A stretch of 64,000 nt of DNA from contig NZ_QKZO01000001.1 of assembly GCF_003254295.1 (NCBI RefSeq), positions 1-64,000 on the forward strand. Direction: 5' to 3'. A program made the position numbers and the translations under genes. Of the stretch, positions 10,324-57,991 are shown piece by piece. The stretch comes from Rhodobacter capsulatus (GTDB lineage Bacteria > Pseudomonadota > Alphaproteobacteria > Rhodobacterales > Rhodobacteraceae). A model generated the notes under the pieces. The model was not told the DNA's origin and searched no databases. It worked only from the letters and a program-made list of their open reading frames with translations. Within the stretch, counting starts at the first letter, position 1; every line of letters starts with the position of its first letter.

Positions 10324-10502
10324 CCCGTTCCTCCCGGTTTGATGGTGTCGATCCGGCCCGGATCGCGCCCGGAGGCGACCGATCGCGTCGCTCTGCCGCC
10401 GCTTGCCTTCGGCTCTCAATCTCGGGGCACATCCGCCGCGGTTCAAGAGGAATCACGCCAAAGCGAAAAGACCCGCAGGCCGCCGCCCCGAAAGGCGGCA
10501 GG

Positions 10503-10908
10503 CGCGCGGAAGACCTGTAAGCCGGATTTTGTCCGGGGTTGCCCCCTGGATGACCATTCCTCTGGGTCTGCGGTCACCCGCAGCCTCAAGCCGCCAACCC
10601 GGACACCTCGGGGCGAAGCTCCCCTGCCGTCCCCCGTTTCCGGTTGCGGCGCGGCATCCCTATTCGGCGTTGCTCCCGGTGGGGCTTGCCGTGCCGGTCC
10701 TGTTGCCAGTCCCGCGGTGGGCTCTTACCCCACCGTTTCACCCTTACCCTGCAAGCAGGGCGGTCTCTTCTCTGTGGCGCTTTCCCTGGGGTTGCCCCCG
10801 CCGGGCGTTACCCGGCACCGTTGCTTCATGGAGTCCGGACTTTCCTCGGCCGCCCAGCTATCCGCGAAACGGAGCTATGGGCCGCCGCGGTCATCCGGTC
10901 TTCCGCGC
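10503..10908 (-). ncRNA. rnpB: RNase P RNA (class A)
   Basis: On the minus strand, the conserved 5' segment GAGGAAAGTCCGGACTCC appears near 10855-10835, and the 3' segment ACAAAATCCGGCTTACAGGT near 10531-10512. GGGTAAGGGTGAAA and AGAGGAATGGT, typical of the P15 and J regions, lie between. The ends GCGCGGAAGACC and GGTCTTCCGCGC pair to form P1, which sets the limits to about 10908 and 10503. This RNA is the catalytic part of RNase P, which matures tRNA 5' ends. Confidence 0.95.
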
Positions 10909-13922: not shown

Positions 13923-14206
13923 TCGACCACCTTCGGCACGGCAAAGAAACCCTCGCGGGCATCGGGGGCGTTTTTCAGCACGGCTTCGGGATAGTTGCCG
14001 TCCGTGACCACATCCGCGCGCCGTTTCAGCCGCATCGGCGTGACCGAGGTCATCGGCTCGATGCCGTCGACGTTCACTTCGTTGAGCTGTTCCATGAAGG
14101 TGAGGATGCCCGAGAGCTGCTCGGCCAGTTTCGGCAGGTCGGTTTCGGGCACGCGGATCCGCGCCAGATGCGCCACCTTGCGGGCGGTGTCGATGTCGAT
14201 GGACAT
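13919..14206 (-). CDS. gatC: Glutamyl-tRNA(Gln) amidotransferase subunit C
   Basis: This 95-residue subunit stabilises the GatA-GatB complex. It starts [17 protein letters not shown] and contains [13 protein letters not shown] and [13 protein letters not shown]-like sequence (here [15 protein letters not shown]), with [16 protein letters not shown] at the end, matching the family over its whole length. ATG at 14206 is preceded by GGAGCAACCC. It is co-translated with gatA through a 4-bp overlap. Confidence 0.96.
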
Positions 14207-14320
14207 GGGTTGCTCCGGTTGACTTGGGCCGGGTTTAGCGTCCGGGGGCGGGTGATTCAAGCGCCGCTTCCCTTTGGGCGCGCCTGCGCTAGACTTTGCG
14301 CGGAAAATGGGAGGAGCGGC

Positions 14321-15013
14321 ATGAAACTGACATGGTTCGGGCATTCCGGGTTCCGGCTTCAGATCGAGGGCGCGGTGATCCTGATCGACCCCTGGCTGAG
14401 CGGCAATCCGATGTTCCCGATGGACCAGCGGGCCGAGGCGCTGGCGGGGGCGACGCATATCTTGCTGACGCATGGGCATGGCGATCATTCCGCCGACACG
14501 CTTTCGCTGGCGCGCGAGCTGGGCGTGCCGGTTGTGGGCATCTATGACACGATCAGCCATTGGGAAGCGGCCGAGGGGATCGCGGGCGTGGGTTTCAACA
14601 AGGGCGGCACCGTCGATCTGGCGGGCGCCAGGGTGACGATGGTGCCCGCCTCGCATTCCTCTTCGATGAGCGGTCCGACGGGGCCGGTCTATGCCGGGAC
14701 CGAGTCGGGCTACATGATCGCGGGCGAGGGTCGGATGATCTATCTCTCGGGCGACACCGGGATTTCGGCGGACATGGGCTGGATGGGGGACTATTTCCGC
14801 CCCGACATCGGGATTCTCTCCTGTGGCGGGCATTTCACCATGGACATGAAGGCCGCCGCCTGGGCCGCGAAGAAATACTTCGATTTCAAGGTGGTGGTGC
14901 CGTGTCATTACCGCACTTTCCCGCTTCTGGAGCAATCCGCCAAGGTGCTGGCCGAGGGCCTGCCCGGCGTGCAGGTGATCGAACCCGAGGTTCTGCTGCC
15001 GATCGCGCTGTGA
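14321..15013 (+). CDS. Metal-dependent hydrolase (UPF0173, metallo-beta-lactamase fold)
   Basis: This 230-residue protein starts MKLTWFGHSGFRLQ and carries the metal-binding THGHGDHSADT. Further metal-site positions lie in VPASHSSS, LSGDTG and VVPCHYRTFP. These are the marks of the UPF0173 branch of metallo-beta-lactamase-fold hydrolases, whose substrate is unknown. The start has an excellent ribosome-binding site (GGGAGGAGCGGC). It is divergent from gatC with a 114-bp gap. A structured repeat begins 12 bp after the stop. Confidence 0.9.
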   Translation: MKLTWFGHSGFRLQIEGAVILIDPWLSGNPMFPMDQRAEALAGATHILLTHGHGDHSADTLSLARELGVPVVGIYDTISHWEAAEGIAGVGFNKGGTVDLAGARVTMVPASHSSSMSGPTGPVYAGTESGYMIAGEGRMIYLSGDTGISADMGWMGDYFRPDIGILSCGGHFTMDMKAAAWAAKKYFDFKVVVPCHYRTFPLLEQSAKVLAEGLPGVQVIEPEVLLPIAL

Positions 15014-15024
15014 GCGCGCCGCCG

Positions 15025-15235
15025 GATCGGGCGGACCAGGAAACGCACGGCGTTTCCCCGCCCGCCGCGACCACGGTTCATCACGACCGTTTCCCCAAGC
15101 ACACCAGAGGCCGGTGCCCGGCCCGGCGGGCGAGAAGCGCCCGCCATGGGCGGGACGGGCGCTGGCCGGGGGCCTTTGCCCCCCCGACCGGCTCGGGGTC
15201 AGTGTGCCGCGTGACCTCGGCGATGGCCTCGGTCA
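15025..15235 (+). repeat. Three-hairpin intergenic element, copy A
   Basis: Hairpin 1 is GGAAACGC-ACG-GCGTTTCC (15039-15057). Hairpin 2 is GGCGGGCG-AGAAG-CGCCCGCC (15125-15145). Hairpin 3 has a TTTG loop at 15175-15178 and a partly decayed G5/C5 stem. The element ends GACCTCGGCGATGGCCTCGG. It aligns along its length with copies at 23352 (inverted), 50923 and 56206. Compared with copy C, hairpin 1 has a C-G pair where C has G-C, a compensatory change. It sits between the hydrolase gene and the SRP RNA. Confidence 0.85.
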
Positions 15236-15316: not shown

Positions 15317-15413
15317 TTGAGAGGTTGGCGCGGGCGAGCGCCTCGCCAACCCGGTCAGGTCCGGAAGGAAGCAGCCGCAACGAGCCCCGCTTGGGTCGAT
15401 GTCCAGCCTCTCA
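15317..15413 (+). ncRNA. ffs: Signal recognition particle RNA (4.5S type)
   Basis: The conserved apical segment GGTCAGGTCCGGAAGGAAGC lies at 15353-15372, followed by AGCCGCAACGAG. The terminal stem is GAGAGGTTG near 15319 paired with the CAGCCTCTC that ends near 15411. At about 97 nt this is the short bacterial SRP RNA, which binds Ffh and targets nascent membrane proteins. A promoter-like sequence lies directly upstream. Confidence 0.95.
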
Positions 15414-15458
15414 CCCCTCCCCCCTTCAGCGAAATTCAGACGCCCCGCCCGGGCGCGA

Positions 15459-23329: not shown

Positions 23330-23351
23330 CGGGGTCGCGATCTCTGAAGGC

Positions 23352-23540
23352 GCCTGCCTTGGCCGCGGCCATGCGAGACACCTGCAGCAACCACCGCCGG
23401 GGACCAAAGTCCCCGGCCAGCGCCCGCCCCGCCCACGGCAGGCGTCGGCCTCTGCTGCGCGCGGGGCAGACGGTCTTGGTGCAAGCGATGTCCGAACGGG
23501 CGGGGAAAGGCGGTGCCTTTCCTGTTCCGCCCGAACCGAG
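23352..23540 (-). repeat. Three-hairpin intergenic element, copy B (inverted, shortened)
   Basis: On the minus strand, hairpin 1 is GGAAAGGC-ACC-GCCTTTCC (23522-23504). Hairpin 3 is GGGGAC-TTTG-GTCCCC (23414-23399), a perfect stem of different sequence from copy C but the same TTTG loop. Hairpin 2 is missing: the sequence between GGCC and the shared GGGCGGGGCGGGCGCTGGCCG is about 20 nt shorter. Its first end nearly touches the ilvE stop codon. Confidence 0.8.
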
Positions 23541-23548
23541 GGGCAGGG

Positions 23549-24418
23549 TCAGGCCCGCACCAGCTTTTCGTAGCTTTCCGCCACGTCGCGGGTCAGCGCG
23601 CCGACCTCGAAGTGGAAATCACCGATCTTCCCCACCGGGGTCACCTCGGCCGCGGTGCCGGTCAGCCAGCACTGCTCGAAGCCCGCCAGTTCCACCGGCT
23701 CGATGTGGCGCTCATGCACGGTGATGCCCTTGCCCTTCAGCATCTCGATCACCGTCTGCCGGGTCAGACCGTTCAGGAAGCAATCCGGCAGCGGCGTGTG
23801 CACTTCGCCGTTCTTCACGAAGAACACGTTCGCGCCGGTCGCCTCGGCCACATAGCCGCGGTAATCCATCATCAGCGCGTCCGAGCAGCCCTTGGCCTCG
23901 GCGGCGTGTTTCGACATCGTGCAGATCATGTAAAGACCGGCGGCCTTCGCGGCGGAGGGGATCGTCTTCGGATCGGGGCGGCGCCATTTCGAGATGTCGA
24001 GCTTGGCGCCCTTCATCTTCGCATCGCCGTAATAGTTGCCCCATTCCCAACCGGCGATCGCCAGCCGCACCGGGTTCCTGCGCGCCGAGACCCCCATGTC
24101 GTCGCCCGCCCCGCGCCAGGCGATGGCGCGCACATAGGCGTTCGTCCAGCCGTTCGCGGCCAGCATCGCGTATTTCGCCGCCTCGATCTCTTCCACGCTG
24201 TAGGGGATCTCGAAATCCAGCAGCTCGGCCGATTTGCGCAGCCGGATCGAATGTTCCACGCCCTTGAAGATCTTGCCGTCATAGCAGCGCTCGCCCTCGA
24301 AGACGGAGGAGGCATAGTGCAGCGCATGGGTCAGGATATGGACCTTGGCATCGCGCCACTCGACCAGTTTCCCGTCCATCCAGATCTTGCCGTCACGATC
24401 GTCGTAAGCCCCGGCCAT
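23549..24418 (-). CDS. ilvE: Branched-chain amino acid aminotransferase
   Basis: This 289-residue PLP fold-type IV transaminase exchanges amino groups between Leu/Ile/Val and 2-oxoglutarate. Conserved parts are ILTHALHYASSVFEGERCYDG, AYVRAIAWRGAGDDMGVSA in pieces, GYVAEATGANVFFVKNGEV, and LNGLTRQTVIEML. The frame is open upstream, but ATG 24418 follows AAGGAGGGCG and matches the usual start. It is transcribed divergently from petP across a 148-bp gap with palindromic sequence, so the regulator next door could act on it. Confidence 0.92.
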   Translation of the reverse strand: MAGAYDDRDGKIWMDGKLVEWRDAKVHILTHALHYASSVFEGERCYDGKIFKGVEHSIRLRKSAELLDFEIPYSVEEIEAAKYAMLAANGWTNAYVRAIAWRGAGDDMGVSARRNPVRLAIAGWEWGNYYGDAKMKGAKLDISKWRRPDPKTIPSAAKAAGLYMICTMSKHAAEAKGCSDALMMDYRGYVAEATGANVFFVKNGEVHTPLPDCFLNGLTRQTVIEMLKGKGITVHERHIEPVELAGFEQCWLTGTAAEVTPVGKIGDFHFEVGALTRDVAESYEKLVRA

Positions 24419-24566
24419 CACGCCCTCCTTGGCTGCTTCGTTTTCACAAGTTGCGCCATCTAGGTCCGTCTCGGACATAATATTGCGCAAAATCTGCGCT
24501 TCGGTAACAATTGATTCTTGGAAAGTCAACAAGGCTGACATAAAGTCGCGCAAAAGCGAGGATCAC
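24419..24566. promoter_or_regulatory. Divergent ilvE-petP control region
   Basis: The region contains the palindrome TTGCGCAA at 24483-24490 and related half-sites TTGCGC at 24451 and CGCGCAAAA at 24547-24555. On the minus strand TATTAT (24482-24477) could be the ilvE -10, and it directly abuts the palindrome. The petP start is 12 bp from the last half-site. A MarR-type operator is plausible, but no binding data are implied. Confidence 0.35.
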
Positions 24567-50465: not shown

Positions 50466-50804
50466 TCAGTCGCCGGTGCCGGGATTGGGCGAGAAGTATT
50501 TCTCGCGCTTGCCGGTCTCGCCGTCGCGCTCCTTGTGATCCGGCAGCGGGTCTTTCTTGATCGTGATCACCGGCCATTGTTGGGCATAGGTGCGGTTGAA
50601 CTCGACCCAGTCCTCCATGCCCGGCTCGGTGTCCGGACGGATCGCGTCGGCCGGGCATTCCGGTTCGCAGACCCCGCAGTCGATGCATTCGTCGGGATGG
50701 ATCACCAGCGTGTTCTCGCCCTCGTAGAAGCAGTCCACCGGGCAGACTTCCACACAGTCGGTATATTTGCAGGCGATGCAGTTGTCGGTGACGACATAGG
50801 TCAT
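50466..50804 (-). CDS. fdxA: 7Fe ferredoxin (ferredoxin II)
   Basis: This 112-residue ferredoxin carries a [3Fe-4S] and a [4Fe-4S] cluster. By analogy with Azotobacter ferredoxin I, C9, C17 and C50 bind the 3Fe cluster, and C21, C40, C43 and C46 the 4Fe cluster ([14 protein letters not shown]). C12 and C25 are extra, as in that family. The C-terminal extension ([20 protein letters not shown]) is typical. Length and sequence match R. capsulatus ferredoxin II. ATG 50804 follows GGGGTTTCAAGA, a weak ribosome-binding site. Confidence 0.95.
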
Positions 50805-50922
50805 TCTTGAAACCCCAATCTTTGGCGCAGGGATGTCCTAGCCCTCCGGGGGCGATCAATCAAGAGCAGGAGATATACAAAAACCGGGTGCGGCGAAGTG
50901 CCGGGGGGCGCGGGGCGCGTTG

Positions 50923-51133
50923 GATCGGGCGGAACAGGAAAGGCACCGCCTTTCCCCGCCCGCTTTGCAACCGATGCAACGGGACCGTTTCCCCAAGCAC
51001 ACCATAGGTCGGCGCCCGTCCCGGCGGGCGAGAAGCGCCCGCCATGGGCGGGGCGGGCGCTGGCCGAGGGCCTTTGGGCCCCCGGCGGTCGCGGGGCAAG
51101 TGTCCCGCATGACCTCGGCAATGGCCTCGGCCA
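50923..51133 (+). repeat. Three-hairpin intergenic element, copy C
   Basis: This best-preserved copy has hairpin 1 GGAAAGGC-ACC-GCCTTTCC (50937-50955), hairpin 2 GGCGGGCG-AGAAG-CGCCCGCC (51023-51043) and hairpin 3 GGGCC-TTTG-GGCCC (51068-51081). It ends GACCTCGGCAATGGCCTCGG at about 51130. It lies between the S4-protein gene (both on the minus strand with fdxA) and fdxA, adjacent to the S4 stop. Confidence 0.88.
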
Positions 51134-51144
51134 CGGCAAATCCG

Positions 51145-51441
51145 TCAGCCTTCCCCCGCCGCCTCGATCAGCTCATACAGCGTCGCGGCTTCCGGCGCGG
51201 GGCCGCGGCGGGTGCCACAGGCCAGGATGCGCAAGACCCGCACCTCTGCCCCCAGAACCAGCGTCAGCACGTCGCCCGGGCCGACCGCACGGCCCGGCTT
51301 TTCCAGCTTCTGCCCGTTCAGCCGCACCCGGCCCGCGGTGACCAGATCAACAGCCAAGGCGCGGCTCTTTGCGAACCGCGCCTGCCAGAGCCATTTGTCG
51401 ATGCGGATGCGCCCCGCCTCGGATGCGTTCGCGTCAGACAA
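51145..51441 (-). CDS. S4-domain RNA-binding protein (Hsp15-like)
   Basis: This 98-residue protein has an S4 RNA-binding domain: IRIDKWLWQARFAKSRALAVDLVTAGRVRLNGQ in parts, and VGPGDVLTLVLGAEVRVLRIL. This is the Hsp15 (HslR) type, which binds free 50S subunits carrying stalled nascent chains. The C-terminal tail (GTRRGPAPEAATLYELIEA) is also typical. It starts 3 bp after the helicase stop, so they share a transcript, linking two RNA-acting proteins. Confidence 0.9.
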   Translation of the reverse strand: MSDANASEAGRIRIDKWLWQARFAKSRALAVDLVTAGRVRLNGQKLEKPGRAVGPGDVLTLVLGAEVRVLRILACGTRRGPAPEAATLYELIEAAGEG

Positions 51442-54981: not shown

Positions 54982-55269
54982 ATGAGCAAAGTCATCGAAA
55001 AAGCCGTGGAACAACTGTCGGCGAAGCTGCCGAACGGCTTTTCATCCACCGCGAAATTCATCATCGAGGGCGAAGGCAGCATCATCTGCGACCCCGATGG
55101 CGTGCGCGCGGGCGATGACGCGGCCGAGGTCACGCTGACCGCCGACACCGACACCTTCCGCGGCATGATCGAGGGCACGGTGAACCCGACGATGGCCTTC
55201 ATGTCGGGCAAGCTGAAGATCGACGGCGCCATGGGCGTGGCGATGCAGCTGGGCTCGGCGCTTTCGTGA
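54982..55269 (+). CDS. SCP2 sterol-binding domain protein
   Basis: This 95-residue stand-alone SCP2 domain has FSSTAKFIIEGEGSIICDPDG, EVTLTADTDTFRGMIEG and NPTMAFMSGKLKIDGAMG, a small hydrophobic-ligand-binding fold. Bacterial homologues are common and of uncertain function, often near lipid enzymes. ATG 54982 follows CGGAGGCAAC, a strong site. Its stop overlaps the GTG start of the alpha/beta hydrolase, so a lipid-related role for the pair is plausible. Confidence 0.92.
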   Translation: MSKVIEKAVEQLSAKLPNGFSSTAKFIIEGEGSIICDPDGVRAGDDAAEVTLTADTDTFRGMIEGTVNPTMAFMSGKLKIDGAMGVAMQLGSALS

Positions 55270-56204
55270 TCGAGGAAGCCCCCCTTTTCCACGCTCTGGC
55301 CGAAGGGCCCGCGGGCGGCAAGGCCTGGTGGCTGACCGCCTCTGATGGCGTGCGGCTGCGGCTGACACTGTGGGGCGGGGGGGCGAAGGGCACGGTGTTC
55401 CTGTTTGCGGGCCGGGCCGAATATGCCGAGAAATACGGTCCTGCGGCGGCGGATCTGGCGGCGCGCGGCTATGGCACGCTGGTGATCGACTGGCGCGGAC
55501 AGGGGCTGTCGGACCGGCTGATCGCCGATCCGGTCAAGGGCCATGTCGAGAAGTTCAGCGAGTATCAGCGCGATGTCGATGCGATGCTGGCGGCGGCGGC
55601 GCGGCTGGATCTGCCGCGGCCCTGGGTCGTGCTGGCGCATTCGATGGGCGGCACGATCGCGCTGCGCCGTCTGATGGGGGCGCATCCCTTTGCCGCCATT
55701 GCCTTTTCCGCGCCGATGTGGGGGGTGGGCCTGCCCCGGGCGATCCGGCCTTTCGGCCCGATGCTGTCGCGGATGACCCGAACCAGCCCCTTCGCGCTGC
55801 GTTATGCGCCGGGCTGGGGGCCGGTCAGCTTCGTGCACCGGGCGGGGTTTCACGACAATTTCCTGACCACCGATCCCGAGATGTGGACGCTGCTGGTGCG
55901 GCAGGTGGCGAAGGCGCCGGAGCTGGCGATTGCCGGGGCCTCTCTGCATTGGGTGGCCGAGGCGGTGCTGGAATGCCGGGCGCTGGCGGCCCTGCCGACG
56001 CCCGATCTGCCGTGCTATTGCGCGCTTGGCAGCCGTGAACGCATCGTGCCGCAAGAGCCGGTCCGGACCCGGATGGCCAGCTGGCCGGGCGGGCAGCTCG
56101 CCCTTTACGACGGCGCCGAGCACGAGGTGATGATGGAAGGCCCGGCGATGCGGGCGCGGTTTTACGACGCCTGCGCCGCGCTGTTCGAGGCGAACCGGGG
56201 CTGA
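55266..56204 (+). CDS. Alpha/beta hydrolase (lysophospholipase-like)
   Basis: This 312-residue serine hydrolase has LVIDWRGQGLS, nucleophile Ser in VVLAHSMGGTIALR, an Asp region near CYCALGSRERIVPQEPV and the His in YDGAEHEVMME. It resembles PldB-type lysophospholipases and monoacylglycerol lipases. It starts at GTG 55266, overlapping the SCP2 stop (GTGA). The pair may act on lipids: one holds, one cleaves. That coupling is inferred from the overlap only. Confidence 0.85.
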   Translation: MIEEAPLFHALAEGPAGGKAWWLTASDGVRLRLTLWGGGAKGTVFLFAGRAEYAEKYGPAAADLAARGYGTLVIDWRGQGLSDRLIADPVKGHVEKFSEYQRDVDAMLAAAARLDLPRPWVVLAHSMGGTIALRRLMGAHPFAAIAFSAPMWGVGLPRAIRPFGPMLSRMTRTSPFALRYAPGWGPVSFVHRAGFHDNFLTTDPEMWTLLVRQVAKAPELAIAGASLHWVAEAVLECRALAALPTPDLPCYCALGSRERIVPQEPVRTRMASWPGGQLALYDGAEHEVMMEGPAMRARFYDACAALFEANRG

Positions 56205-56205
56205 C

Positions 56206-56412
56206 CGGCCGCCCGGGCGGAGAAGGAAAGGCATCGCCTTTCCCCGCCCGCAGCGCCCCCTGGTCGAAAGACCGTTTCCGCGAGGCACAACAGAGGTCGG
56301 CGGGCGAGAAGCGCCCGCCGGGGGCGGGGCGGGCGCTGGCCGGGACGCTTTGGCGCCCCGGCGGTCCCGGGGCCGGTGTCGCGCGTGACCTCGGCGATGG
56401 CCTCGGTCATGG
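56206..56412 (+). repeat. Three-hairpin intergenic element, copy D
   Basis: Hairpin 1 is GGAAAGGC-ATC-GCCTTTCC (56225-56243). Hairpin 2 is GGCGGGCG-AGAAG-CGCCCGCC (56299-56319). Hairpin 3 is GGGACGC-TTTG-GCGCCCC (56342-56358) with one A-C mismatch. It ends GACCTCGGCGATGGCCTCGG and starts within 2 bp of the hydrolase stop. It lies between convergent genes, the hydrolase and Anbu. Confidence 0.87.
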
Positions 56413-56424
56413 CCCGCGACGCCC

Positions 56425-57150
56425 TTAAAGCGTGATCCGGCCGAAGCCGTCGCGCAGGGCCTCGGACCAGGCCTGCGACATCGCCGCGAATTGCGCGTCG
56501 TCCTTTTCGATCCGCTTGCGCAGCCCGACCTTGCAGGCATCGCGCGCGATCACCGCAAGATCCAGCGGCATCCCCACGGAAAGGTTCGAGCGCAGCGTCG
56601 AATCCATCGACAAAAGCACCGCCTTTTGCGCGTCTTCAAGGCTTGTCGCGGGCCGCACGACACGGTCCAGAATCGGCTTGCCGTATTTGTGCTCGCCGAT
56701 CTGCAAAAACGGCGTGTCCTCGGTCGCCTCGATGAAATTGCCCTCGGGATAGACCAGGAACATCCGCATCGTGCCGCCCTTGCGCTGCCCCGCCACGATC
56801 ATCGAGGCGGAGACCGTCACCTTGGACGCGTTCATCTTGTGGTCGATGTCCTGACGCACCGAAGCCAGCGTGTTGCCGATGATCTCGGCCACCGCCAGCA
56901 TCGTCGGCGCCTGCATGATCGAGGTGTCACCGCTGGTTTCGGGATGCTCGATCGCCTCGCGCAGCCGGGCAATCGTCGTTTGCGTGACCGAAAGCGAGCC
57001 CGCGGTGAGGATCGTCACCACCCGCTCGCCCGGTTCTTCAAAGATGAACATCTTGCGATAGGTCGCAATATTGTCGAGCCCCGCATTGGTGCGGGTGTCG
57101 GACAACAGCACCATGCCCTGATCGAGCAGCAGGCCCACGCAATAGGTCAT
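56425..57150 (-). CDS. Anbu-type proteasome-homologue peptidase
   Basis: This 241-residue protein belongs to the Anbu (ancestral beta subunit) branch of Ntn hydrolases, self-compartmentalised relatives of HslV and the 20S proteasome beta subunit. The candidate nucleophile is Thr2 (MTYCVGLLL), with D18 in SDTRTNAG and K33 in YRKMFIFEE. Two ATGs occur in tandem; the second, 57150, puts Thr directly after Met as in the family, so I choose it. It ends an operon with permuted ATP-grasp, alpha-E and transglutaminase genes. Its peptidase activity and substrate are unproven. Confidence 0.88.
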   Translation of the reverse strand: MTYCVGLLLDQGMVLLSDTRTNAGLDNIATYRKMFIFEEPGERVVTILTAGSLSVTQTTIARLREAIEHPETSGDTSIMQAPTMLAVAEIIGNTLASVRQDIDHKMNASKVTVSASMIVAGQRKGGTMRMFLVYPEGNFIEATEDTPFLQIGEHKYGKPILDRVVRPATSLEDAQKAVLLSMDSTLRSNLSVGMPLDLAVIARDACKVGLRKRIEKDDAQFAAMSQAWSEALRDGFGRITL

Positions 57151-57178
57151 CATTCCCCCGGAAAAGCAGGCGGTCACC

Positions 57179-57991
57179 TTATTGTTGCACGGCCTCCAAG
57201 GCAACCGTGACATCGAGACGCTCGGAGCCGTCACCCTGCGCGATGCCCTTGATCGGGGCTGCCTCATGCGCGTCAAGGCCGGAGCCGATGCGGATATAGC
57301 GCGCATCGGGGCAACATGCATTGGCCGGATCAAAGCCGATCCAGCCGATGGTCTCGACCCAGATCTCGGCCCAGGCATGGGCGGCCTCGTGCGGCGCGCC
57401 ATCCTCGCGGGCGAAAAGATAGCCCGAGACATAGCGCGCGGGCATGCCCACCGCGCGGGCACAGGCCAGAAGCGCCTGGGCGTGATCCTGACAGACCCCC
57501 TCGCCCTGCGCCAAAGCCTCGGCCGCCGTCGTATGCGCATGGGTCGTGCCGGGACGATAGGCGATGGCCTCACTGACGGCACCGCACAGCCGATGCGCCC
57601 GGTCAAGCGGGTCTTTCGTGCCCAGGCCCGCGGTTTCGGCCAGATCGCGCAAAGCATGGTCGATCCAGGTGGCCGAGGTCTCGCGCAGATAGGCGAAGGG
57701 CGAAACGATCTCGCGATGGCCGCGCAGCACCCCGGCGGTGTCGGTGGTCTCGACCTGACCGACGGCGGAAATTGTCACCTCGGTCACCGGACCGCGCAGC
57801 GACCAGCCCTCGACCTTGTCACCCGCGCCGTCGCGGAAATTGCCGCCGCGCAGGCCGCCCTCGACCGCGACATCCCAGCGGATCGTGCGCTGGCCGTCAA
57901 AGCGCGACGGAAACAGCCGCAAGGATTGCACGGCGCCGCGCATCGGCATGTCATATTCGTAGGTGGTGACGTGATGGACCGTCAGGATCAT
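57179..57991 (-). CDS. Transglutaminase-like cysteine protease/transferase
   Basis: This 270-residue protein starts with the N-terminal domain common to this subgroup (HHVTTYEYDMPMRGAVQSLRL). The triad follows: C167 in QGEGVCQDHAQALLAC, H205 in AHAWAEIW and D221 in GFDPANACC. These belong to the bacterial transglutaminase-like family that cleaves or forms peptide or isopeptide bonds. Its start overlaps the alpha-E stop by 4 bp and the Anbu gene follows at 28 bp. It may process a peptide made by the ATP-grasp partner. Confidence 0.9.
   Translation of the reverse strand: MILTVHHVTTYEYDMPMRGAVQSLRLFPSRFDGQRTIRWDVAVEGGLRGGNFRDGAGDKVEGWSLRGPVTEVTISAVGQVETTDTAGVLRGHREIVSPFAYLRETSATWIDHALRDLAETAGLGTKDPLDRAHRLCGAVSEAIAYRPGTTHAHTTAAEALAQGEGVCQDHAQALLACARAVGMPARYVSGYLFAREDGAPHEAAHAWAEIWVETIGWIGFDPANACCPDARYIRIGSGLDAHEAAPIKGIAQGDGSERLDVTVALEAVQQ

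Follow-up and report, generated by a model that had tools for sequence, protein, structure and literature searches.

A folded intergenic repeat of the Rhodobacteraceae and the unrelated, oppositely oriented copies that occupy its shared sites

A window of 64,000 nucleotides of Rhodobacter capsulatus DNA (NZ_QKZO01000001.1, positions 1 to 64,000) holds four copies of a folded element of about 211 bp, which is an intergenic repeat family of the Rhodobacteraceae. Where related genomes carry it at the same site in opposite orientations, the occupants are unrelated members of the family, and not the same copy inverted. We propose, at about even chances of being right, that a non-autonomous structured repeat spread beside stop codons and then formed tail-to-tail pairs, one arm of which was lost in each lineage.

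Architecture of the element and its copies in the window

The four copies were located with a covariance model (217.5, 193.4, 146.5 and 116.3 bits), the next-best 18 rows of the window, to E = 1, all scoring at most 20.5 bits. These copies, and the helices of copy C, are as follows.

15025..15235, + strand: copy A, full length (covariance model)
23348..23536, - strand: copy B, with the P3 region deleted (covariance model)
50923..51133, + strand: copy C, full length, 211 bp (BLAST and covariance model)
56211..56409, + strand: copy D, without most of the 5' strand of P2 (covariance model)
50926..50962, + strand: HP1 of copy C, two stacked stems, outer CGGGCGG/CCGCCCG and inner GGAAAGGC/GCCTTTCC (own-copy pair counts)
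51007..51065, + strand: P2, long stem enclosing P3, 51007-51022 pairing with 51050-51065 (own-copy pair counts)
51023-51043, + strand: P3, GGCGGGCG-AGAAG-CGCCCGCC
51066..51083, + strand: HP4, TTTG loop, with 5 of 7 pairs changed on both sides
51110..51133, + strand: P5, terminal hairpin TGRCC..GGYCA and right boundary of the element, with 3 of 7 pairs changed on both sides

The element is a 211-bp unit with sharp ends, CGGGCGGA on the left and TGRCC..GGYCA on the right, comprising in 5' to 3' order HP1, a variable linker, a conserved GACCGTTTCCCC, P2 around P3, HP4 and P5. The initial annotation, made from the window alone, had described four copies sharing an ordered set of three hairpins; all are present within a few bases of where it placed them (copies B and D were adjusted), and the long stem P2 and the terminal hairpin P5 are additions to its set. 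Its hairpin 2 (P3) is indeed missing from copy B alone among the four, to which it should be added that, in copy D, little of the 5' strand of the enclosing P2 is left. Its hairpin 3 (HP4) does in most cases keep a TTTG loop while the stem varies, TGAT or TGAA taking the place of that loop in a few copies.

On at least one side of each of the four copies, an open reading frame has its stop codon 6-12 bp away, as had been stated. Copy C is flanked by fdxA (50466-50804, - strand; the FdxA protein matches its NCBIfam model above the cut-off) and by a 98-aa open reading frame (51145-51441, - strand), which by eye looks like an S4-type RNA-binding protein. A metal-dependent hydrolase gene (14168-15013, + strand) ends 11 bp before copy A, and an SRP RNA lies downstream of that copy; a branched-chain aminotransferase gene (23549-24553, - strand) ends 12 bp before copy B, which has the orientation of the gene; and copy D is found between two convergent open reading frames (55266-56204, + strand, and 56425-57657, - strand). 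The whole genome (3.67 Mb; hereafter G000) contains at least 41 copies, namely at least 40 places matched by BLAST with copy C, and copy B, which together form our alignment of own copies. Both nearest frames face the element in 23 of these 41 cases, one in 16 and neither in two, according to a rough open-frame count, which reads some sites wrongly.

Covariation of the stems

Standard pairs fill 95.0% of the cells in the 41 own copies (97.9% in the outer and 100% in the inner helix of HP1). The six helices covary, with 73 compensatory cells versus 23.3 in shuffles that, here as in the second set below, leave the relatedness among copies in place, and with a covariation score of 0.120 versus 0.055 in shuffles and at most 0.038 with slid partners, which lower the pairing to 40-53%. 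None of 500 shuffles reached the observed percentage paired or the observed score. The swap of one HP1 pair noted in the initial annotation is real: this pair is GC in 26 copies, CG in 12 and AU in three, and is broken in none. The fold of copy C itself has a z-score of -4.6 as RNA and -4.9 as DNA.

A second set, of 76 copies from other loci, yielded 215 compensatory cells versus 47.3 in shuffles, 96.2% of cells paired, a score of 0.195 versus 0.075 when shuffled and at most 0.039 when slid, and compensation at 29 of 53 pairs, counts that lean towards the model because the alignment was fitted to it. The 76 matches come from 57 of 59 loci, contigs of R. capsulatus and R. viridis being excluded: 52 of the 57 other loci among the 80 listed in the pattern scan described below (the five omitted, L262, L293, L294, L304 and L306, have truncated or weak copies), and seven loci from the family-wide covariance search. 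This set includes metagenome-assembled genomes (MAGs) labelled only Rhodobacter, some of which may fall within the genus, and the same genome may occur in it twice. The claim of the initial annotation that pairing is selected in a multi-copy intergenic element has therefore held on two sets of many more copies. Decayed coding sequence is an unlikely origin, because the position is intergenic and the stem changes are compensatory.

RNAalifold alone predicted 37 pairs, six of them with compensatory change; it recovered HP1 and part of P5, paired the P2/P3 region otherwise and omitted HP4, so that the full structure is a manual reading combined with pair counts. As to the strand, P2 and P3 of the 76 copies contain 91 G.U pairs versus 9 A.C mismatches on the given strand, which is what folding of that strand would produce. 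The corresponding numbers are 32 versus 12 in HP4 and, reversed, 2 versus 23 in P5; all helices of the own copies total 60 G.U pairs and 30 A.C mismatches.

Copy number and distribution

Copy C has at least 40 matches in genome G010, 41 in G014 and 34 in G009; the remaining 14 genomes of the genus have 0 to 3 apiece. A covariance search of the Rhodobacteraceae matched at least 96 of 246 genomes; among the matches listed, eight genomes, the own one included, exceed 100 bits (G000, G029, G065, G199, G223, G252, G257 and G282) and the others reach at most 62 bits, many of the weaker matches spanning P2/P3 only (about model positions 60-143). A scan of named genomes for the HP1 pattern returned at least 104 stretches, of which 80 were listed (23 of them R. 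capsulatus or R. viridis); among those listed are R. capsulatus SP108, R. viridis JA737, Gemmobacter, Pseudorhodobacter, Szabonella, Fuscibacter, Fuscovulum and several MAGs. By reading, L052, L053, L054 and L055 are core-only (P2/P3) relatives in other genera, L054 having a second hairpin of different sequence in the place of HP4. Another genus of the family carries three head-to-tail copies about 27 bp apart (L343:73-764).

Copy C had no match in plasmid and phage collections at blastn sensitivity. No Rfam family reached its gathering score over any of the four window copies, and a permissive search with the 351 bases that include copy C gave one irrelevant match (10.2 bits); we found no description of the element in the open-access literature searched. 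The group to which the model organism R. capsulatus belongs thereby gains a strongly covarying, family-wide repeat that no Rfam model matched.

Unrelated occupants in opposite orientation at shared sites

We compared the copies of G000 (41), G010 (40), G014 (30 of 41) and G009 (30 of 34) together with their flanks, after dropping matches shorter than 80 bp (100 bp in one comparison) and those within 200 bp of a locus end; G000, G010 and G014 are here termed the R. capsulatus complex, a label of this analysis. By their flanks, the 141 copies fall into 52 sites, 43 of which are filled in more than one genome. The occupants are flipped at 15 of 27 shared sites between G000 and G014, 20 of 32 between G000 and G010 (12 having the same orientation), 10 of 25 between G010 and G014, 10 of 23 between G000 and G009, 9 of 22 between G009 and G010, and 11 of 18 between G009 and G014. 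At the 22 sites filled in the whole complex, the three genomes agree in four cases and one is inverted in 18, the tally by odd genome being 9, 6 and 3. Homology ends at or beside the stop codons in the flipped junctions that were read, which cover part of those against G010, and the stop codon itself often differs.

The flipped occupants are unrelated copies. Over variable columns their identity is 0.48, compared with 0.47 among random copies and 0.73 in pairs of the same orientation; none of the 75 flipped pairs exceeds the 99% level of random copies, and two exceed the 95% level. Every sub-region tested of the flipped pairs is at random-copy identity, except marginally the arms of P5 (0.872 versus 0.832; 6/400). 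Same-orientation pairs exceed the 99% level in 45 of 72 cases overall, 33 of 39 within the complex and only 12 of 33 with G009, and are mostly orthologous. All 39 such pairs of the complex have one or both of their 12-nt spacers in common at 0.75 or above (34 on the HP1 side, 24 on the P5 side), and in five of them, at four sites, which score at or below the 95% random level, orthology was called from the spacers alone. At L108, G009 and G000 have the same orientation and look non-orthologous. As to the idea, set aside here, that the other arm is stored elsewhere in G000, the element of G014 at site C, that of copy C, finds its best G000 match at another site and on another contig (C3:41779-41989, 90% identity).

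Proposed pair formation and arm loss, and the alternatives

The explanation that we put forward is that a non-autonomous repeat of the Rhodobacteraceae would have entered gaps beside stop codons, often between convergent genes, and that the elements would then mostly have stayed at the same sites. Many sites would once have held two copies tail to tail, with HP1 at each gene end and the P5 ends facing. Such a pair would form an imperfect palindrome of about 400 bp, unstable enough for lineages to have deleted either arm, sometimes leaving 12-17 nt of the 5' end of the lost element; each site would so have ended up with two element lineages, which differ in orientation.

We infer pair formation and the loss of one arm from the following lines of evidence. 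First, three sites keep a stub of 12-17 nt of the 5' end of the other lineage's element: at L138, G000 retains CTGATCCGCCCGAAACC of an element intact in G010; at L125, G010 retains GGTTTCGGGCGG of an element intact in G000; and at site C, both G010 and G014 retain about 12 nt of the 5' end intact in G000. A systematic count found stub motifs beside 8 of the 141 copies, at six sites, versus 2.1 copies expected by shuffling; several of the eight are weak, and three sites convince by eye. Second, neighbours less than 150 bp apart among the 76 other-locus copies are direct in 11 of 12 cases, so that inverted pairs seem not to persist. Third, the exception, L281:6418-6804, reads as two head-to-head copies with one common HP1 hairpin. 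Fourth, at L264, two 5' halves face each other, by eye, with the centre gone. No intact tail-to-tail pair occurs among the 141 copies examined, and this intermediate is accordingly one that we deduce. G009 is element-free at site C, L132 and L126, and an internal deletion of G014 at L132, the one deletion followed, seems to be bounded by two GGGGCGGG-like repeats.

What also counts against the model of pair formation is the closeness of G000 and G014, which is hard to fit with a separate arm loss on every terminal branch unless the alleles were also sorted or recombined. The low share of same-orientation pairs with G009 above the 99% level (12 of 33), the pair at L108 and the five low-scoring pairs of the complex speak against it as well. 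A bolder version, which we hold to be doubtful, is that convergent gene ends are two-slot loci, where each gene had its own repeat, the inverted pair was mutually destructive and one was kept. Were this true, orientation at dozens of sites would serve as an inherited marker with two states, and selection would act to keep at least one arm. With unrelated, inverted copies exchanged at fixed sites, bacterial chromosomes seem to have kept a natural record of how palindromes form and are lost.

Serial replacement, in which a recent, non-ancestral newcomer inserts inverted beside or into the resident, which is then deleted, is the foremost alternative, albeit a rather unlikely one. It accounts for both the unrelated flipped copies and the stubs, and eight of the nine four-genome sites with readable polarity fit a single change on ((G000,G014),G010),G009, an order taken from flank identities only; L108 does not. 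However, it predicts about 4.5 double-flip sites (by a hand calculation from the 9, 6 and 3 of 22), none of which is clear, and it requires newcomers almost solely in the opposite orientation. Replacement in random orientation should have produced about as many unrelated pairs of the same orientation, and none is clear among the 39 pairs of the complex; with sites treated as independent, the hand-calculated probability is 2^-18 for 18 versus 0, and about 0.002 for 18 versus 4, all low-score sites being counted against.

It is less probable still that homologous recombination, for instance through gene transfer agent particles, which R. capsulatus makes, has moved two standing alleles per site back and forth between lineages. 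This would explain why all six genome pairs show flips at 40-63% of their shared sites, with little phylogenetic signal, and why most sites have only two element lineages. Yet flipped pairs do not consistently have less similar flanks (up to 700 bp per side) than pairs of the same orientation (mean identities of 94.7 versus 94.5 for G000-G014, 93.3 versus 92.9 for G010-G014 and, the other way, 92.9 versus 94.2 for G000-G010), and the opposite orientation of the two alleles is left unexplained.

A REP/BIME family mobilised by a RAYT would suit a palindromic, intergenic element in many copies, and is very improbable for the reasons given in the next section. As to a simple in-place inversion of the same copy, that is, a phase-variable switch, the differing orientation at the same place between flanks 90-98% identical would call it to mind, but the flipped sequences are unrelated, which excludes it for the 75 flipped pairs.

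Relation to known repeat classes

The label of a REP/MITE-like element, proposed in the initial annotation, was right in kind, and fails for both a RAYT-driven REP and a strict MITE, which we reject. The REP-type transposase that it had raised (Y1_Tnp, PF01797) is absent from 18 of 18 genomes of the genus, in a search that was positive in 5 of 14 control genomes. No GTAG tag was seen, the left-end tetramers of the 141 copies including TTTC (54), GTTC (30), GATC (13), GGTC (13) and CGTC (3). Similarly to bacterial MITEs, the element is a short repeat that carries no gene; unlike them, it has ends that are not mutual inverted repeats (by reading, the left end given above and GGYCA on the right do not match) and no clear target-site duplication, the longest shared k-mer being at chance in G000, G014 and G009 and slightly high in G010 (2.75 versus 2.17, standard deviation 0.34).

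Repeats of the type of the Rhizobium-specific intergenic mosaic elements (RIME) are longer than 100 bp and contain several palindromes. We know of no report of orientation exchange at fixed sites for RIME, Sm-repeats or the ABC palindromes. The ERIC and RU repeats have a TA target duplication, not seen in the present element, and differ from it in lineage and sequence. Their likeness to it lies in being intergenic units, of 103-168 bp for the enterobacterial ERIC, RU-1, RU-2 and RU-3 (PMC2759123). In the account cited for Sinorhizobium, the RIME, Sm-repeats and ABC palindromes resemble our element as alphaproteobacterial intergenic repeats, dozens per genome, of conserved sequence and secondary structure and unknown function (PMC2573895); they belong to a different order, and the comparison is one of description. 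The REP/BIME and GTAG/CGTC palindromes share with it, in the passages cited, an extragenic position near gene ends and units often close and opposite (PMC3733652, PMC2817692), REPs lying mostly between unidirectional and convergent genes (PMC3733652, same passages). REP units are 20-40 bp long and RAYT-linked, whereas the present element has 211 bp, six helices and no accompanying Y1 transposase.

Possible function

Selection would act on the folded form, whose most likely role is that of a 3'-end structure protecting mRNA ends or terminating transcription without a T-tract; this form might also be the substrate of a putative mobilising enzyme. We judge the chances of a 3'-end role, as read from the sequence, to be evenly balanced. 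The proximity to stop codons, the strong stems and the strand-biased G.U pairs of the core favour such a role at the RNA level, and the excess of G.U over A.C in the central stems, together with the adjoining stop codons, makes the 3'-UTR RNA motif of the initial annotation a possible reading. A passive role, or one at the DNA level, is favoured by a linker that is not conserved and by sites that occur with either orientation; the element may act at 3' ends or may be passive and selfish. No intrinsic terminator (hairpin and T-run) was predicted on either strand of 50700-51400, around copy C. The exchange of copies at fixed sites makes both the stability of inverted repeats and the role of 3'-end repeats directly testable in laboratory strains.

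Other structured RNAs of the window are a class A RNase P RNA (10502-10906, - strand), a tRNA (1209-1281, - strand) and the small SRP RNA near copy A (15318-15416, + strand).
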